Source: a virus
IMG/VR virus record: IMGVR_UViG_3300034375_007208
Span: 1-23,148 of that record
Direction: 5' to 3' (one strand)
Length of the DNA: 23,148 nt
Shown here: piece after piece, positions 4,592 to 22,608 of the stretch
Position numbering within the stretch: the stretch's first letter is position 1
How the letters are laid out: each line of letters opens with the position of its first letter
The notes under the pieces: model-generated
Told to the model about the DNA's origin: nothing
The model's input: only the letters and a program-made list of their open reading frames with translations
Databases searched by the model: none
Made by a program: the position numbers and the translations under genes

Positions 4592-4861
4592 TTACCACTT
4601 GACCTTGTTGGCCCACCACGCGGCGGACATCTTGCCTCTGGCTATGTTCTTAGCGTGACGATCCTTGAACGCCTTGCGCTGCTTGGCGTTTTGGTTCGTC
4701 TTCGCACCCTGCTCCCCGAAGCGGATGAGCTTCACCTTGTCGCCCTCCTTCGCCACAACAACATGGCTCTTGGTCGGGTGGCTCGGCGTCCGCTTCGGCT
4801 TGTTGTAGCCAGACACGCCCGCGCGGGTGAGTCGGCTGTCTTTCTTCTTGGGAGTCGGCAT
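4592..4861 (-). CDS. Conserved small basic phage protein next to portal
   Basis: An 89-residue protein starting at ATG 4861, which overlaps the portal stop by one base (TGATG); a GTG one codon earlier is also in frame. The sequence MPTPKKKDSRLTRAGVSGYN, then HPTKSHVVVAKEGDKVKLIRFGEQG, and the ending MSAAWWANKVKW match a protein I recognise as very widespread beside portal and capsid genes of environmental phages. Its function is not established to my knowledge. The persistent linkage to portal suggests a minor head or packaging role (inference). Confidence 0.85.
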   Translation of the reverse strand: MPTPKKKDSRLTRAGVSGYNKPKRTPSHPTKSHVVVAKEGDKVKLIRFGEQGAKTNQNAKQRKAFKDRHAKNIARGKMSAAWWANKVKW

Positions 4862-6762
4862 CACATTGCTGAGTTCATGCCTTGGACGGCCTGGGGTTGG
4901 CCGACCGGGGCTTGTTGCACCATCTCGTTGAGCATCTGAGCCATCTGCTGACCAGCCATAGGCACCTTCTTGCTCGGCGGCGCTTCAGGCTTCACGCCCT
5001 TCATCCCCGAGTCCTTCTCGAGGCGGGGCTCCATGCTCGTCACAGCGTTCATGACCGTCGCCTGCCGCTGCATCGAGACATCCTCGGCCAAGCGGCGCAG
5101 AAGGTTGTCGTCAACAAGCTGCGCCATGTCGGGCATGTTCATGGCGTTGCCAATCTTGTTGAAGTGGTCCTTCCACGGGTAGTCCGGGTAGACCTGCATG
5201 AGCTGCAGGCTGTTCAGCAGCATCGAGTGCATCTCAAGCGCACGCTTCTGGGCAAGGCCCTCCGAAGCACGCTCCATGCTGTACGGCTCGATCTCTAGCT
5301 CCAGATCCTCGAAGGTGTAGTCACCCGAGGTGTGCCCACCGCCACGGAAGACAACGCTCGCCCCCTTCGGTAGGGCTAGGCCCTCCATGGCCTCGCGCCC
5401 AATCGGGAACACGATGTTGTCGTCGTGGTACATGTAGAAGGCGACCTTGCGCAGCATGTCCACCACGCAGTCCGTGAAGGTCTGCTTGATGAACGCGATG
5501 CGGGTGTTGGCCGCTTCAGACGCAATGCTGTGCTCGGTCGCCGTGCCCTGGCCGCTAATCGCGCCACGCAGCGCCTCGTCCATGCCTAGCACGCGGTCTG
5601 CGCGCTGCCGGCAGGTGGCTATCCAGTTCGCCTGCTGGTCCGTCTGCCCGCCCATGACGAACTCCTGCACCAGCGCCTTGCCGTCCTCGAAAGGAACCAC
5701 CGCCACATAGTCATGCTCGGTGTTCTTGATGAGCTGCGCCGTGCGCGGGTCGTTCACGCCCACGATGCGCTTGTGCTTCATCATGCTCGAGGACGCCGCC
5801 AGCACATGGTCGTTCAGGTCGCGCACCTGCGCCTCGACCGCAGTCAGCGGCGACAGCGGGTAGACATTGTCGGGCACCTTGTAGGCGCCGAACACCACAT
5901 AGGGGCCAGTGCGCGGCCCGTAGTAGGGGCGCGGCTTGCGCACGAAGGTCGATTTGGCGTCTTCGTCGGCGTAGCCCAGGGCTTGGTTGCAGCCAAGGGT
6001 GTAGATGACGCCATTGAACCCTGCGCTTTCACCGGGGCTGTCTTCCAGCTCCGCCTCCGGCACATAAATCTCGTAGCACCAGACCTCGTCCCGATCCGGC
6101 GTACCTTCATACCCATAACCGTGTTTCCGGTTGGGGTTGTCCTGTGCGCTGAGTGACTCAATGGCGTCAATGTCCCAGCCCTGCTCGGAGTTGCTCGTCG
6201 CAAGGTCCAGCAGGTCTTCTTTGTCCATGCACCACATGTGGCCCATGAACCGCGCGCTCGCCACGCGCTCCGCCTCGGGGTCAACAAAGAATCGGCGCGG
6301 CGCGATACGCTCGCATGTCGGCCAAGTCTGCGTCTCCGCCGGCCCGAACGGCGTCTTCGTGGGGTAGGCGTACTTCTTCTTGTGGTCCGGGCGCACAAGA
6401 CCCACGCCGAATCCCAGCAGCATGTCGCTCGCGAGCTCCACCAGCACCTTCCGTAGGCTGGCATCGCGAGCCCAGCGGTTCATGCCGTGTCGCAGCGCCT
6501 CGGCCACATCCTGCTGGGGGCCAGGACGGCGCGACTCGACCTGCACGCGCGGGTTATCGAACACCAGCCGGGGCACCATCAGCGAGATGTACTCGTAGTA
6601 GGTGTTCTCCGGGCTGTACTCCGCCGAGAACTCGCCGCCCTTGTCGTAGAACGGCCCGGTGTAGCGCGCCACCTTGTCCTCGTACCCCTCGAGGTGACGG
6701 TCGCGGAACTCGATGGCGGCGTTGATCTCCGCCATGAGATTGGTGCTGGTAGTCTTGAGCAT
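4861..6762 (-). CDS. Portal protein
   Basis: A 633-residue protein directly downstream of the large terminase, starting at ATG 6762 that overlaps the terminase stop (TAATG). Length, the N-terminal helical segment followed by NTYYEYISLMVPRLVFDNPRV, a long alpha/beta core, and a Gln/Met/Pro-rich flexible C-terminus (about residues 580-633) fit large portal proteins of podo- and siphophages. The portal forms the dodecameric ring at one capsid vertex through which the terminase pumps DNA and to which the tail attaches. Order terminase-portal-scaffold-capsid supports the call strongly. Confidence 0.88.
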   Translation of the reverse strand: MLKTTSTNLMAEINAAIEFRDRHLEGYEDKVARYTGPFYDKGGEFSAEYSPENTYYEYISLMVPRLVFDNPRVQVESRRPGPQQDVAEALRHGMNRWARDASLRKVLVELASDMLLGFGVGLVRPDHKKKYAYPTKTPFGPAETQTWPTCERIAPRRFFVDPEAERVASARFMGHMWCMDKEDLLDLATSNSEQGWDIDAIESLSAQDNPNRKHGYGYEGTPDRDEVWCYEIYVPEAELEDSPGESAGFNGVIYTLGCNQALGYADEDAKSTFVRKPRPYYGPRTGPYVVFGAYKVPDNVYPLSPLTAVEAQVRDLNDHVLAASSSMMKHKRIVGVNDPRTAQLIKNTEHDYVAVVPFEDGKALVQEFVMGGQTDQQANWIATCRQRADRVLGMDEALRGAISGQGTATEHSIASEAANTRIAFIKQTFTDCVVDMLRKVAFYMYHDDNIVFPIGREAMEGLALPKGASVVFRGGGHTSGDYTFEDLELEIEPYSMERASEGLAQKRALEMHSMLLNSLQLMQVYPDYPWKDHFNKIGNAMNMPDMAQLVDDNLLRRLAEDVSMQRQATVMNAVTSMEPRLEKDSGMKGVKPEAPPSKKVPMAGQQMAQMLNEMVQQAPVGQPQAVQGMNSAM

Positions 6763-8198
6763 TAGTTGAACTGCTGGGCGTGGACTTCAGAGTGACTCAG
6801 CACATCGCCAAGGCTGCCCTCTGGGTAATCGGGGATCTGGATCTCCATGCTCATGTCACGGTTCCACATGAACATCGCCGCGTATCGCAGGCAGTCCACG
6901 GCGTGATCGGAGCAGGTAGGGTCAGGGCGTTCTTTGCCCGGGGCGCCGTCGCGACTGCGCGCCCAAGTGTAGCTGGAGATCTCCTCTTCCAAGCAGGTGG
7001 GCTTCTTCGCGTCTGTGCGCGCCTTGTCGCGTACTAGCGAGCTCCCACGACAGATGTAGATGCGCGGGCCGTGATCGACCTTGCTCAGGCCCCAACGGAC
7101 CATGTCGATACCCGTTTTAATCGAGTTCTTCGCCCTCCGGGCGATTCGGCTGCCATCACGGCCCCGCGCAGCTCCTAGCCGGTCGTTGAAGACCTTGATG
7201 TACTCCGGCTCGCTGGGGTCGCACACCAGCGCAGACAACGGGTAGTCTTCATTCGCGGCCATGACTTGCTCCGCCCACCAGTCGCTGGTCTCGCCGGTCT
7301 TGTAGATCTCCTGCACGCGGTACATGCGCTGATCGTTGACCGCCCAGATCTGCAAGCAACCAGGGTGCCGCAAGCCTTTGTCGTAGGACCCGAAGTACCA
7401 CTTCGGCTCCGGCATGTCCTCGGGGTCGATGATGTGGACCGCAGGGTCCCAATCCTCGAAGATGATGCCGTCTTCGCTGGCCCACTTGCCCTCGTACATG
7501 TTGGCGCGCCGCGTGCCGGTCAGCTTCGCGAGGACGCCGAGGACATAGTGCTCGCCGTTTTTGGTCCATGTGCCCTTTGCGTGGTCAAACCACGCAGGGT
7601 TATCTTCGTGTCGAGAGAGTAGCCGGATCCGCTTGTCGCGCTTGTGGCGATCCGGCACCTCTCGGAACCCCTGAGGGAAGTGCGTGTTCAGCCAGTGGAA
7701 CTCGCCTGCGGGGTTGGTGTCGGCCACCCGCATCTGCCACGGCATCTTGAAGTTACGGTTCGCACGCGCCAACCATTCCCAAGAGTCTGATGTGATCTCC
7801 CGCGCCTCAAAGACGCAGATCACATCGTACTGTGTCGAGAATGTCTTCGACGGTTTGTCCAGACCCCCGATAACGACATGCGAACCGTTTGGATAGTGGT
7901 AGTTCTGGCGTGTGTTGCGGGCGCTGGTGCCGTGGATCGCCGGGTGTCCGGGCCACAGCACCTCGGTCTCCCACTCAACAAGCACCGATTCGGCCATCGA
8001 CTCGCGCGTTTGGCGCAGCATCAGCACGCGGATGCCGGCGTAACGCTCGCAGAGGTAGTTGATCCACTCCAGCAGAGCCCGGGTTTTGCCCGTACCCGCC
8101 GGCCCCTCAAGCAATAGCTCGTTGGGCTGCAAGCTCCACAGCTCGCGCGCCGCCCCGTAGGGGGTGTATTCGTGGACAACCTCGGTCGTTTGGCTCAT
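6762..8198 (-). CDS. terL: Terminase large subunit (packaging ATPase/nuclease)
   Basis: A 478-residue protein with both terminase domains. The ATPase has Walker A GPAGTGKT at residues 32-39 and Walker B VICVFE at 126-131, with Glu131 as the likely catalytic base. The C-terminal RNase H-like nuclease shows YDKG near residue 250, VCDPSEPEY further on, and SDHAVDCLRYA from about 430, the conserved DH..D..RYA motif that holds the last metal ligand. It translocates DNA into the procapsid through the portal and cuts genome ends. The start overlaps the upstream stop by ATGA; no strong ribosome binding site, consistent with coupling. Confidence 0.95.
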   Translation of the reverse strand: MSQTTEVVHEYTPYGAARELWSLQPNELLLEGPAGTGKTRALLEWINYLCERYAGIRVLMLRQTRESMAESVLVEWETEVLWPGHPAIHGTSARNTRQNYHYPNGSHVVIGGLDKPSKTFSTQYDVICVFEAREITSDSWEWLARANRNFKMPWQMRVADTNPAGEFHWLNTHFPQGFREVPDRHKRDKRIRLLSRHEDNPAWFDHAKGTWTKNGEHYVLGVLAKLTGTRRANMYEGKWASEDGIIFEDWDPAVHIIDPEDMPEPKWYFGSYDKGLRHPGCLQIWAVNDQRMYRVQEIYKTGETSDWWAEQVMAANEDYPLSALVCDPSEPEYIKVFNDRLGAARGRDGSRIARRAKNSIKTGIDMVRWGLSKVDHGPRIYICRGSSLVRDKARTDAKKPTCLEEEISSYTWARSRDGAPGKERPDPTCSDHAVDCLRYAAMFMWNRDMSMEIQIPDYPEGSLGDVLSHSEVHAQQFN

Positions 8199-17221: not shown

Positions 17222-17415
17222 TCCGCCTCAAGCCCTGCCCCTGCCGCTACTGGGACGGGCAGGACCCCGATACCAGCGACGGATCCCCCATGGTCCTGTA
17301 CTGCGGCGACACCGGAGAGGCGCAATGCGTCGAGTGTAGCCGACCCATGGAGTACCAGCTGGTCATCTCTGTCGATCAACTCAACCCCAACCCCAAGGAG
17401 GAAACCAATGACTGA
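17218..17415 (+). CDS. Small zinc-ribbon protein
   Basis: A 65-residue protein from GTG 17218 with GGAGG 7 bases upstream. Cysteines lie in CPC (residues 6-8), a central Tyr-Cys-Gly, and CVEC near 39-42, followed by a hydrophobic strand, which resembles a small metal-binding ribbon. Unknown partner. The CAACCCCAACCC box and ribosome binding site of the next gene lie within its 3' coding end. Confidence 0.65.
   Translation: MIRLKPCPCRYWDGQDPDTSDGSPMVLYCGDTGEAQCVECSRPMEYQLVISVDQLNPNPKEETND
17382..17393 (+). promoter_or_regulatory. CAACCCCAACCC leader box (copy 4)
   Basis: Identical 12-base box inside the end of the zinc-ribbon gene, 14 bases before the ATG at 17408 and followed by AAGGAGG. 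Its retention within coding sequence argues that it is selected for. Confidence 0.5.
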
Positions 17416-17728
17416 TGTCTCTGCGCTCTATCACGCGATCATGGACCGGCATGGATACATGCTCGAGAGCGAGGCGCGCGCTCTCGCCTGCCTGCCCGAG
17501 TTCCGACTCATGCCAATCCTGGCGCGCTACTCGAACTGCAGGTTCACCTGCTCCGCGCAGGATCTCGACTTCCTGATGGGCGCGCTCGATCACAGCCTGT
17601 GCGACTATGTGTACTTGCGCGATCTCAGCGTCCATGAGGACGAACTGCGGCGCCGCTACAACGAGTGGTACAGCAACGATCGGCGCTCTCGAGGTTCGCT
17701 CGACGCCCCTTACAGGAGGAGTTGGTAG
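17408..17728 (+). CDS. Hypothetical early protein
   Basis: A 106-residue protein from ATG 17408 with AAGGAGG 6-7 bases upstream and an 8-base overlap with the previous gene. Mostly helical, with CLPEFRLMPILARYSN near 28-43, three cysteines and a very Arg-rich C-terminus (YNEWYSNDRRSRGSLDAPYRR). No family recognised. It immediately precedes the methyltransferase. Confidence 0.65.
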   Translation: MTDVSALYHAIMDRHGYMLESEARALACLPEFRLMPILARYSNCRFTCSAQDLDFLMGALDHSLCDYVYLRDLSVHEDELRRRYNEWYSNDRRSRGSLDAPYRRSW

Positions 17729-17729
17729 T

Positions 17730-18824
17730 GTGGCTGTACATCCCCAAGCCATCAGCATCTGCACAGGCATCGGAGGTCTCGACCTCGCCGCCCGCATGGT
17801 GTTCGGAGCTCGCTCCGTCTGTTATGTGGAGAGGGAAGCAGCGGCCTTGGAAATCTTGGCAGCGCGCATTCAAGACGGCTCCATGGACGATGCGCCTGTT
17901 TGGTCGGATGCCCGATCCTTCGACGGCAAACCATGGCGCGGCAAGGTGGATCTCATCACAGCCGGATACCCTTGCCAGCCATTCAGTGTCGCCGGACGGG
18001 GATTGGCCGAAGCCGACCCCAGGCACATCTGGCCCGACATCAAGCGGGTCATCGGAGAGGTTCAACCAACTGTCGTTGTTCTCGAAAATGTCCAAGGACA
18101 CCTCAAGCGAGGGTTCGACACGGTCCTCAACGACCTTGACGAGCTGGGGTTCGATGCGGAGTGGGGCATATACTCAGCGTCCCAAGCCGGAGCTCCACAC
18201 AGGAGGAACCGCCTGTTCGTCTTGGCCCACCGCCGTGACATCGGATTCCCGATCGGCTGGACGACACTCCACGACGACGGGAGTGATGCACCCGGGCACG
18301 ACCTTGACCGATGCGTGCCGGCAATGGCCGACGCCGCGAGCGATGACGGGCGGTGCGGAGAGCGCCGACCGCAAGAAGGAGTTGGGGCGCACGGCGAGCG
18401 GAGGCGGCGACCTGCAGAGCGCAGCAGCTCAATGGCCGACGCCGAATGCTTCGGTGGTGAACGATGGCGAGAGCGTAGAGAGCTTTCTCGCACGCCAGAA
18501 GAAGTGGGCGCACAAGTACCACAACAGCATGCCGCTGACCGTGAAGGCGAAGCAGTGGGCCACACCAACGGCTCGAGATCACAAGGACGGCACAGAGCCT
18601 TCGGACAAGGCGCCCACGAATGGACTGCTTGGCCGCCAGGCCCCGAGGGTGATTGGAGCGATATCCCCCAGCACCTCTGGCCGGCAGTTGAACCCCCTGT
18701 TCGTCGAGGCCCTCATGGGGTTCCCGGTAGGGTGGACCGACTGCGCGCCCTTGGCAACGCTGTGTGCCCTGCCCAAGCAGTCGTAGCCCTCGATGATCTC
18801 CTCTCCAGAATGACCCATGCCTGA
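17730..18824 (+). CDS. DNA cytosine-5 methyltransferase (reference frame)
   Basis: A 364-residue protein from GTG 17730, with AGGAGGAG 8 bases upstream; a GTG at 17728 opens the other frame. It carries C5-methyltransferase motifs in order: I, SICTGIGGLDLA near 9-20; IV, GYPCQPFS with catalytic Cys82; VI, LENV with Glu119; VIII, APHRRNRLF near 154-162; X, RLRALGNAVCP with GNAV at 342-345. It transfers methyl groups from S-adenosylmethionine to cytosine, probably protecting phage DNA from host restriction. After about residue 164 the region between VIII and X (target recognition) has phrases typical of one family subtype (MADA, VGHTNG, AWPPGPEGDW) but less typical codon bias, and overlaps a second frame with its own methyltransferase-like sequence. 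Confidence 0.85.
   Translation: MAVHPQAISICTGIGGLDLAARMVFGARSVCYVEREAAALEILAARIQDGSMDDAPVWSDARSFDGKPWRGKVDLITAGYPCQPFSVAGRGLAEADPRHIWPDIKRVIGEVQPTVVVLENVQGHLKRGFDTVLNDLDELGFDAEWGIYSASQAGAPHRRNRLFVLAHRRDIGFPIGWTTLHDDGSDAPGHDLDRCVPAMADAASDDGRCGERRPQEGVGAHGERRRRPAERSSSMADAECFGGERWRERRELSRTPEEVGAQVPQQHAADREGEAVGHTNGSRSQGRHRAFGQGAHEWTAWPPGPEGDWSDIPQHLWPAVEPPVRRGPHGVPGRVDRLRALGNAVCPAQAVVALDDLLSRMTHA
18223..18786 (+). CDS. Alternative +1-frame C-terminus of the methyltransferase
   Basis: In the +1 frame relative to the methyltransferase, 187 open codons begin WPTAVTSDSRSAGRH, then HPGTTLTDACRQWPTP, two further WPTP/WATP blocks (QWPTPNAS, QWATPTARDHKDG), and LNPLFVEALMGFPVGWTD near the end. I recognise these as the C-terminal signature of another common phage methyltransferase subtype. 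By hand count about 80 percent of codons over 18333-18740 end in G or C, against about 55 percent in the reference frame. A +1 shift after GTC 18219-18221 would join residues 1-164 to this tail (351 residues). Independent internal initiation at GTG 18283 or ATG 18286 is possible. Expression is not shown. Confidence 0.55.
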   Translation, partial: WPTAVTSDSRSAGRHSTTTGVMHPGTTLTDACRQWPTPRAMTGGAESADRKKELGRTASGGGDLQSAAAQWPTPNASVVNDGESVESFLARQKKWAHKYHNSMPLTVKAKQWATPTARDHKDGTEPSDKAPTNGLLGRQAPRVIGAISPSTSGRQLNPLFVEALMGFPVGWTDCAPLATLCALPKQS

Positions 18825-21008: not shown

Positions 21009-21061
21009 AGCGTAGAATATCCGGCAGCCACTTGCCAAGGGCTTGCCGCAGGTTCTACGCT
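21009..21061. promoter_or_regulatory. Symmetric divergent promoter/operator
   Basis: AGCGTAGAA (21009-21017) and TTCTACGCT (21053-21061) form a 9-bp inverted repeat. On the plus strand TTGCCA (21032-21037) and TACGCT (21056-21061) are 18 bases apart; on the minus strand TTGGCA (21038-21033) and TACGCT (21014-21009) are also 18 apart. The two -35-like boxes overlap at the centre (21035). Both ATGs (21068 plus, 21002 minus) are exactly 33 bases from it, 6 bases after their -10-like box. A direct CTTGCC repeat (21031, 21042) is also present. The -10 boxes fit the bacterial consensus poorly. Confidence 0.55.
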
Positions 21062-21067
21062 GGGCAC

Positions 21068-21892
21068 ATGTCCAGACCCAATGAACCGGGGCTCTACCCC
21101 GATGTCTCCTTCAAGGAGTACCTGTCCTGGGATGCAGTCAGCTCCCACGACCTGATGTCGATCAGGCGCTCGCCTGCGCACTACATCGCCAGCAAGGCCA
21201 GCAGCACCCAGACCGACGCCATGCGCTTCGGGACGGCTGCGCATGCGTGGATCCTGCAGCCCGCTGAGGCGCCTGACCTCATCCTCGTCGCACCGAAGGT
21301 GGACCGCCGCACAAAGGCTGGCAAGGCCGCGTGGGCTGAGTTCATGGCCGATGCCGGCGACCGCACCATCGTCAATGAGGACGAGGCGGACACGCTGGCG
21401 AAGATGGCCGGCGCTGTGAATGCCTCTCCCGCCGCACGCAGCGTGCTAGAGCAGGCGGGCGTTCGCGAAGCCTCCGCCCTGTGGCGCCACAGCGAGTGCT
21501 GGGGCAGGGGTCGACCCGACGCCCTGTCGACCGAGGGGCTCATCGTCGACCTGAAGACGGCGCAGGACGCCAGCCCTGACTCGTTCGCCCGCACCTGTGC
21601 GAACTTCAACTACCACCTGCAGGCCGCGTACTACCTCGATGGGCTGCACGCTGCCGGCGTCACGCCCGAGGTCACGGCATTCGTGTTCGTGGTCGTGGAG
21701 AAGACGCCGCCGTTCGGCGTGGCGGTTTACACTCTTAGCGACGAGGCTATCGAGCTTGGTCGTGAGCAGTACCAGAGCGCGCTCTCGGCCTACGAGGATG
21801 CCCTTTCCACCCAGATCTGGGGGGGCTACACCGCCGCATACCAGATCGAAACCCTTGACCTGCCCCGCTGGGCATTCCGCAAAGACTCATGA
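21068..21892 (+). CDS. RecE-like PD-(D/E)xK exonuclease
   Basis: A 274-residue protein from ATG 21068; an upstream in-frame TTG would extend into the promoter region. Key parts are a start like other RecE/DUF3799 enzymes (YLSWDAVSSHDLMSIRRSPAHY), GTAAHAWIL with His59, GRPDAL with Asp151, and VDLKT with Asp161 and Lys163, then NYHLQAAYYLDG. The PD-(D/E)xK residues mark a metal-dependent exonuclease that resects double-strand ends to give 3' single strands for the RecT-like protein. The stop overlaps recT (ATGA), as is usual for such pairs. Confidence 0.85.
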   Translation: MSRPNEPGLYPDVSFKEYLSWDAVSSHDLMSIRRSPAHYIASKASSTQTDAMRFGTAAHAWILQPAEAPDLILVAPKVDRRTKAGKAAWAEFMADAGDRTIVNEDEADTLAKMAGAVNASPAARSVLEQAGVREASALWRHSECWGRGRPDALSTEGLIVDLKTAQDASPDSFARTCANFNYHLQAAYYLDGLHAAGVTPEVTAFVFVVVEKTPPFGVAVYTLSDEAIELGREQYQSALSAYEDALSTQIWGGYTAAYQIETLDLPRWAFRKDS

Positions 21893-22608
21893 GTGACATC
21901 CAACCCGTGAACAACGAAGCCGCCGTTGCCCCGGCTAACAAGGGCAAGGAGATGTGGGACATGGCTACGGCCTTGTCGCGCAGCACCATCATCCCCAAGG
22001 CATTCCAAGGTCAGGCGGCTAACTGCTTCGTCGCCCTGGACATGGCGAACCGCATGGGAGCCTCGCCCATGGAGGTGATGCAGAACATCTATGTCGTGCA
22101 TGGCACGCCGGGGTTCAGCGCCAAGTACGCCATCGCCATGGCGAACCGGAGCGGCATCTTCAAAGGGCCGATCTGCTTCGAGGAGCGGGGCTCCGGGGCC
22201 AGCCTCGAGGTCGAGGCCTACGCCATCGTGCGGGAGACGGGGCAGCGCATCTCGTTCACGGCCAGCATGGCTATGGCTAAGGCGGAGAAGTGGGACTCCA
22301 ATCCAAAGTACAAGAGCGGGCTGGCAAGCCTGATGCTGAAGTACAGGTCGGCCACCCTCCTCATCCGCACCTCCTGCCCCGAGGTTCTGCTGGGGATGCA
22401 GACCGCCGAGGAGGTCGAGGATGTTCGCTACGCCCGCACCGTGGAAGCCACCCCCGTTGTTGCGAAGATCAACCAAGGGTTGCTAGAGTCAGGCGAAGCA
22501 ACGGTTGAGGCCCCCACTTCCCCTCAACCGGAGCGACAGGAAGTGCCGTCTGAGGTCTCTCCCTCCCAAGACCCGGACGAGAACTTCTTCGAGGGCATCG
22601 TAGACTAA
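21889..22608 (+). CDS. recT: RecT-family single-strand annealing protein
   Basis: A 239-residue protein. The sequence STIIPKAFQGQAANCFVALDMANRMGASPMEVMQNIYVVHGTPGFSAKYAIAMANRSGIF is the RecT core, followed by AKAEKW, MLKYRSATLLIRTSCPEVLLG and TAEEVEDV, all landmarks of phage RecT proteins. The C-terminal ~50 residues are acidic, Pro/Glu/Ser-rich and probably disordered. It coats single-stranded DNA from the coupled exonuclease and anneals complementary strands. It is the last gene of the divergent recombination operon, ending at a strong terminator. Confidence 0.88.
   Translation: MSDIQPVNNEAAVAPANKGKEMWDMATALSRSTIIPKAFQGQAANCFVALDMANRMGASPMEVMQNIYVVHGTPGFSAKYAIAMANRSGIFKGPICFEERGSGASLEVEAYAIVRETGQRISFTASMAMAKAEKWDSNPKYKSGLASLMLKYRSATLLIRTSCPEVLLGMQTAEEVEDVRYARTVEATPVVAKINQGLLESGEATVEAPTSPQPERQEVPSEVSPSQDPDENFFEGIVD

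Follow-up and report, generated by a model that had tools for sequence, protein, structure and literature searches.

Two overlapping reading frames of a phage C5-cytosine methyltransferase gene appear to encode complementary subunits of one enzyme

We propose that one locus in a 23,148-nucleotide stretch of viral DNA (the whole of which we call the window) encodes both halves of an orphan phage C5-cytosine DNA methyltransferase. The two halves, alpha and beta, would be translated from two frames of one DNA segment, with the start codon of beta lying two bases before that of alpha and one Shine-Dalgarno (SD) sequence serving both; we put the probability of this reading at about 85%. Alpha, in the reference frame, would be responsible for AdoMet binding and catalysis through motifs I-VIII and X, and beta, in the +1 frame, would contribute the target-recognition region and motif IX. 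Sequence comparisons establish the dual coding, the division of the motifs and the conserved start sites, and the fold of alpha is predicted by modelling. The features are collected in Table 1.

The window matches families of the major head protein, portal/head-tail proteins, the terminase large subunit, exonuclease VIII and RecT (986-2155 and 4861-8198 on the minus strand, 21032-22608 on the plus strand), and these matches identify it as a fragment of a tailed phage.

Table 1. Features of the two-frame methyltransferase locus (positions in the window)
Feature	Position	Strand	Details
Probable shared Shine-Dalgarno, AGGAGG	17714..17719	+	8 nt before beta GTG, 10 nt before alpha GTG
Beta subunit gene, +1 frame	17728..18786	+	GTG...TAG, 352 aa; recognition region and motif IX; proposed start codon
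Alpha subunit gene, reference frame	17730..18824	+	GTG...TGA, 364 aa; C5 methyltransferase motifs I-VIII and X
Alpha catalytic domain, residues 1-170	17730..18239	+	pLDDT mostly 85-98
Beta N-terminal helical segment, residues 34-77, dual-coding with alpha	17827..17958	+	lowered alpha third-position divergence; CCT at alpha Pro56
PCQ of alpha (motif IV)	17970-17978	+	
ENV of alpha (motif VI)	18084-18092	+	
AGGAGG, incidental codons of motif VIII (HRR)	18201..18206	+	
Beta PTP-repeat region (WPTA, WPTP, WPTP, WATP)	18223..18687	+	homologous to separate BabyBack gene
Alpha linker, residues 193-332	18306..18725	+	pLDDT <50 over most; substitutions at alpha first positions
Motif IX (LNPLFVEALMGFPVGW), beta frame	18688..18735	+	near-invariant alignment columns; pLDDT 82-91
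Motif X (GNAV), alpha frame	18753..18764	+	invariant in alignment; pLDDT 85-96; C-terminal helix after

An earlier note on this gene had described two open frames after motif VIII, with extents that our analysis bears out (Table 1). It had also reported that the same DNA reads MADA and WPTP, VGHTNG and WATPTA, and HGVPGRVDRLRALGNA and LMGFPVGWTDCAPLAT, and all three pairs are present as claimed. Third positions over 18333-18740 have a G+C content of 0.793 in the +1 frame and 0.551 in the reference frame, close to the 80 and 55 percent given before, and GNAV is indeed restricted to the reference frame. Furthermore, both frames proved to be genuine coding sequence belonging to the methyltransferase family, as the note had supposed. 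A frame scan extended the observation beyond the tail, the +1 frame having no stop from 17665 through 18786 and thus across the whole gene. On the other hand, openness by itself proves little in such a GC-rich locus: synonymous codon permutation leaves the +1 frame open with a probability of 0.33 in the tail and of 0.03 in the N-terminal part. It is far above chance because it is conserved across relatives.

Alpha matches the Pfam C5 methyltransferase family PF00145 over residues 7-171 (1e-30), has a catalytic domain with motifs I, IV (PCQ), VI (ENV) and VIII, and is grouped with M.HaeIII and M.HhaI when its AlphaFold model is searched with Foldseek. Motif X (GNxV) is present in the same chain, with G342 and N343 invariant, and the C-terminal helical part that holds it is modelled confidently. 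Between motifs VIII and X, the chain is unconserved and disordered in the AlphaFold model, for which the input alignments left out rows from annotated phage records. Neither a recognition region nor motif IX was found in the alpha chain; both lie in the +1 frame.

When the two tails were searched separately, the +1 tail matched phrog_1008 (7e-16) and the reference tail gave only weak matches, mainly around motif X. The PTP-repeat region of beta is the probable target-recognition region, and we read LNPLFVEALMGFPVGW as the C5 methyltransferase motif IX from its sequence pattern and position. Modelled alone, beta is poorly predicted (pLDDT 54) except for motif IX and an N-terminal pair of helices (residues 41-57 and 66-77, at moderate confidence), which may reflect the missing partner. 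A profile search of the PDB with beta returned nothing credible, and no Pfam family was matched. Phrog_1008 and phrog_27243, labelled 'DNA methyltransferase' and 'unknown function', are matched by beta with 56 and 43 of 56 members, respectively. The assignment of beta as a recognition subunit is therefore built on motif IX, on relatives with split or single-polypeptide versions and on analogy with known enzymes.

We compared three segments of the gene (motifs I-VIII, the +1 tail and the reference tail) with those of related loci. At 81 of 90 loci, motif X is in frame with the catalytic part and the match to the +1 tail is in the +1 frame. Since one retrieval had used the +1 tail as query, the other searches were run with alpha alone. 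In the 176 non-redundant loci retrieved with alpha, PTP repeats numbered 515 in the +1 frame, four in the alpha frame and seven in the +2 frame. All together, 178 of 264 loci have the recognition region and motif IX in the +1 frame and motif X in the alpha frame, with about a fifth of the loci unclassed and a few having their motifs in unusual frame combinations. The two-frame layout appears to recur in well over a hundred related phage genes. A search of plasmids gave three distant records only. The two-frame arrangement was also seen on a bacterial replicon, that of Shinella sp. PSBB067 (L299, NZ_CP069303), where no gene is listed at that place.

Substitutions reveal which frame is under selection. 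At alpha codon positions 1, 2 and 3, they numbered 398, 220 and 1020 in the catalytic region and 1196, 449 and 406 from motif VIII to motif X, where alpha first positions are beta third positions. The excess at beta third positions in this overlap was found in 45 of 46 disjoint pairs; the p-values are descriptive only, the loci being related even though disjoint pairs were used. The pattern was also examined in a larger set. Selection switches directly after motif VIII and switches back at RL(R/K)ALGN, just before motif X. This pattern indicates that between motifs VIII and X beta is the selected protein and alpha is free to change. We suppose that the alpha stretch opposite the recognition region would serve as a disordered linker whose main requirement is to stay open.

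Homologues keep both frames open, a point that the earlier note had wished to see checked, and the overlap is constrained in the +1 frame (1196 versus 406) and not in the reference frame only. As for its notion of overprinting, the +1 tail is a conserved domain, and the MADA-type reference sequence behaves like an unconstrained shadow of it that serves as a linker. The converse reading, in which the +1 similarity is a mere shadow translation of a conserved reference frame, could appeal to the partly compositional openness of the tail (the permutation value of 0.33), but has almost nothing left to recommend it, since beta outscores alpha over the same DNA in 62 of 66 comparisons with the window, substitutions fall at beta third positions, and some homologues encode the region without any overlapping frame.

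Such homologues include split and single-polypeptide genes. In the mycobacteriophages BabyBack (L096) and GaugeLDP (L097), a stop codon closes the catalytic frame after motif VIII, and the PTP region is found together with motifs IX and X in a second gene, in the +1 frame. The first residues of this second gene in BabyBack, VTDAASAARHTTTTGVMNPGTTLTDAV, match VTSDSRSAGRHSTTTGVMHPGTTLTDAC of the window beta, and the two profiles match at 97% probability. In Mycobacterium phage ShiLan, gp70 (L300:2189-3358) holds motifs I-VIII, the PTP repeats, IX and X in one polypeptide, and this fusion supports alpha and beta as parts of one enzyme. Two more PTP repeats lie in the +1 frame of ShiLan gp70 just after motif VIII. 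These apparent leftovers suggest that gp70 arose from a two-frame ancestor.

The existence of this single-polypeptide version could also invite the view that the two frames of the window were created by a single-base sequencing error or a recent frameshift mutation. We regard this as next to impossible: with motif X in the reference frame, it would take two errors of opposite direction, and about 180 related loci have this arrangement too. An identical sequence is present in a second contig record as well, possibly not an independent one.

A third arrangement was observed in Gordonia phage Baddon (L121), L008-L012 and L185, which have the PTP region in the +1 frame and motifs IX and X in the alpha frame. 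A class of 'fused' genes considered for L008, L009, L121, L185 and others was discarded, as their PTP region is still in the +1 frame. At L136, L191, L128 and L129, motif IX or X lies in yet other frames, and decay, assembly error or further variants are possible there.

Where beta starts is a separate question. The probable SD sequence is followed by TAGTGTGG, in which the stop codon of the upstream gene, a GTG for beta (17728) and a GTG for alpha (17730) each overlap the next by one base. The upstream gene is a 106-aa ORF of no known function (window 17408-17728, plus strand), whose TAG shares one base with the beta start (TAGTG); given this overlap, the methyltransferase is probably translated within a series of overlapping genes.

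A motif M-x-W-[LI]-[YI]-x-P next to the alpha start is encoded at 110 of 136 loci with an open +1 frame and at none of 48 loci with a +1 stop; in the +2 frame, it was found at one of the 136. The alpha and beta starts are 2, 4 or 5 bases apart in 106 of the 110 loci that bear the motif. The alpha codon overlapping the W codon of beta is CTG in 55 of these 110, and because CTG is an unusual start codon, the W is not merely forced by the alpha start. Across the catalytic region, the +1 frame is open at all 110 loci with the motif, compared with 26 of 74 without it. We prefer this comparison to the stop-avoidance test on class (i), which is circular, its loci having been picked partly for openness.

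Constraint on the N-terminal part of beta is visible in alpha as well. Third-position divergence of alpha over codons ~30-60 is ~0.097 in the subfamily with near-coincident starts versus 0.33-0.39 in the group with internal starts, and a minority codon, CCT, encodes alpha Pro56 in 47 of 51 sequences, a choice that keeps beta Leu57. Judged by these substitutions, the N-terminal part of beta is itself constrained and dual-coding in the subfamily of the window. The other group has +1 stops in the catalytic region and, in many members, an ATG or TTG preceded by an SD sequence and lying ~97 codons ahead of the point where motif VIII ends. In a quick tree of the catalytic part, the window fell with the co-start relatives. 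The beta start proposed for it at 17728 is a GTG and not an ATG, a point against the proposal.

It is nevertheless conceivable, if rather unlikely, that beta is a real subunit started internally, for example at the ATG at 18088 or at the GTG at 18235 that matches the BabyBack start, given that the other nested relatives have SD-preceded internal starts and that the second gene of BabyBack starts just after motif VIII. However, none of the internal +1 starts in the window is preceded by a recognisable SD sequence, and the co-start motif and the N-terminal constraint are conserved in its subfamily. Internal initiation, an alternative raised in the earlier note, is likewise improbable at 18200-18240 in this gene, though other relatives appear to use internal starts. 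More than one beta product may be made from the window gene.

The earlier note had suggested a +1 shift near 18219-18223 as the source of two alternative tails, possibly with two target specificities. In its programmed form, ribosomes that shift would make motifs I-VIII joined to the +1 tail, and those that stay in frame would make the tail with motif X. The beginning of the +1 tail right after motif VIII and the AGGAGG upstream agree with this scheme, which we nonetheless consider very improbable. No conserved slip site or stimulator was found at the frame junction, as scored by an SD-like string and a first-frame stop: the AGGAGG at 18201 is real, but an SD-like string occurs there in only two of 110 close relatives, which argues against a conserved signal, and the first frame has no stop. 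Moreover, a conserved start belongs to the +1 frame itself, constraint on this frame is already apparent upstream of the presumed shift position, and in split relatives the +1 part has its own start codon. Nor do two specificities follow, as the recognition region and motif IX, missing from the reference product, are provided by the +1 product. From their sequences, the two products look like complementary subunits and not alternative tails.

Returning to the two-subunit reading, beta would be translated from its own start two bases before that of alpha, with one shared SD sequence, in this gene and its subfamily, so that about 1.05 kb of shared DNA would yield two proteins of similar length. 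Alpha and beta presumably assemble into one enzyme that methylates the phage DNA, which might protect it from host restriction. For the whole phage methyltransferase clade, we consider it probable, with somewhat less confidence than for the window, that two obligate enzyme halves lie on the same DNA in two frames and that, in its largest sampled part, the starts are at most 5 bases apart behind one ribosome-binding site, with nearly full overlap (352 and 364 codons in the window).

If this is true, the choice between near-coincident starts would set the ratio of the subunits, and these genes would count among the longest same-strand gene overlaps in double-stranded DNA phages and among the most widespread. 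They would be a natural system for studying start-codon choice by ribosomes when the candidates lie two to five bases apart, and for asking how a long domain can evolve within the sequence that codes for its partner. The states found side by side in relatives (nested with a shared start, nested with an internal start, split, and a single polypeptide) would make the evolutionary route traceable. Since gene-calling programs tend to retain a single frame, the annotation of many phage methyltransferases probably lacks half the enzyme or follows the other frame, and an annotated gene expressed alone could look inactive. At L124:1499-2665 and L100:1102-1806, the annotation of gp46 of Acidovorax phage Alfacinha3 follows the beta frame and omits alpha, and the +1 ORF of Paenibacillus phage Shelly is named 'g55 internal gene'.

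Among known two-polypeptide methyltransferases, the closest likeness is to M.EcoHK31I, whose beta gene lies in the +1 frame inside the alpha gene; in the window too, the second gene is nested in the +1 frame of the first. The large polypeptide of M.EcoHK31I (YGGCCR) has motifs I-VIII and X and the small one has motif IX only (PMC3404938), which by description is the same division as in the window, with I-VIII and X in the large polypeptide and IX in the second. In contrast to M.EcoHK31I, beta in the window's subfamily begins at the alpha start and extends over nearly the whole gene instead of starting within it, and the conserved recognition region is in beta, whereas the predicted TRD of M.EcoHK31I is in its large subunit (PMC3404938).

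M.AquI (CYCGRG) is likewise one enzyme of two polypeptides, the first with motifs I-VIII (PMC3404938). Its second polypeptide contains motif IX as well as motif X, an arrangement that BabyBack and GaugeLDP resemble and the window does not share, having motif X in alpha and two almost fully overlapping genes. The single-chain enzymes M.HhaI and M.HaeIII match the alpha catalytic domain in sequence and fold; unlike them, alpha is without the recognition region and motif IX, both of which are in the +1 frame.

An out-of-frame protein within a phage methylase gene has been described in a mycobacteriophage, namely an HNH endonuclease (ShiLan domain) in ShiLan gp65 (PMC11855218). That case is a mobile homing-endonuclease insertion in another methylase, whereas the second frame of the window appears to be part of the enzyme. 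Our literature search, which had most subscription journals outside its reach, found no description of the present arrangement in phages. Compared with these systems, the near-coincident start codons and the breadth of the arrangement in phages appear to be new.
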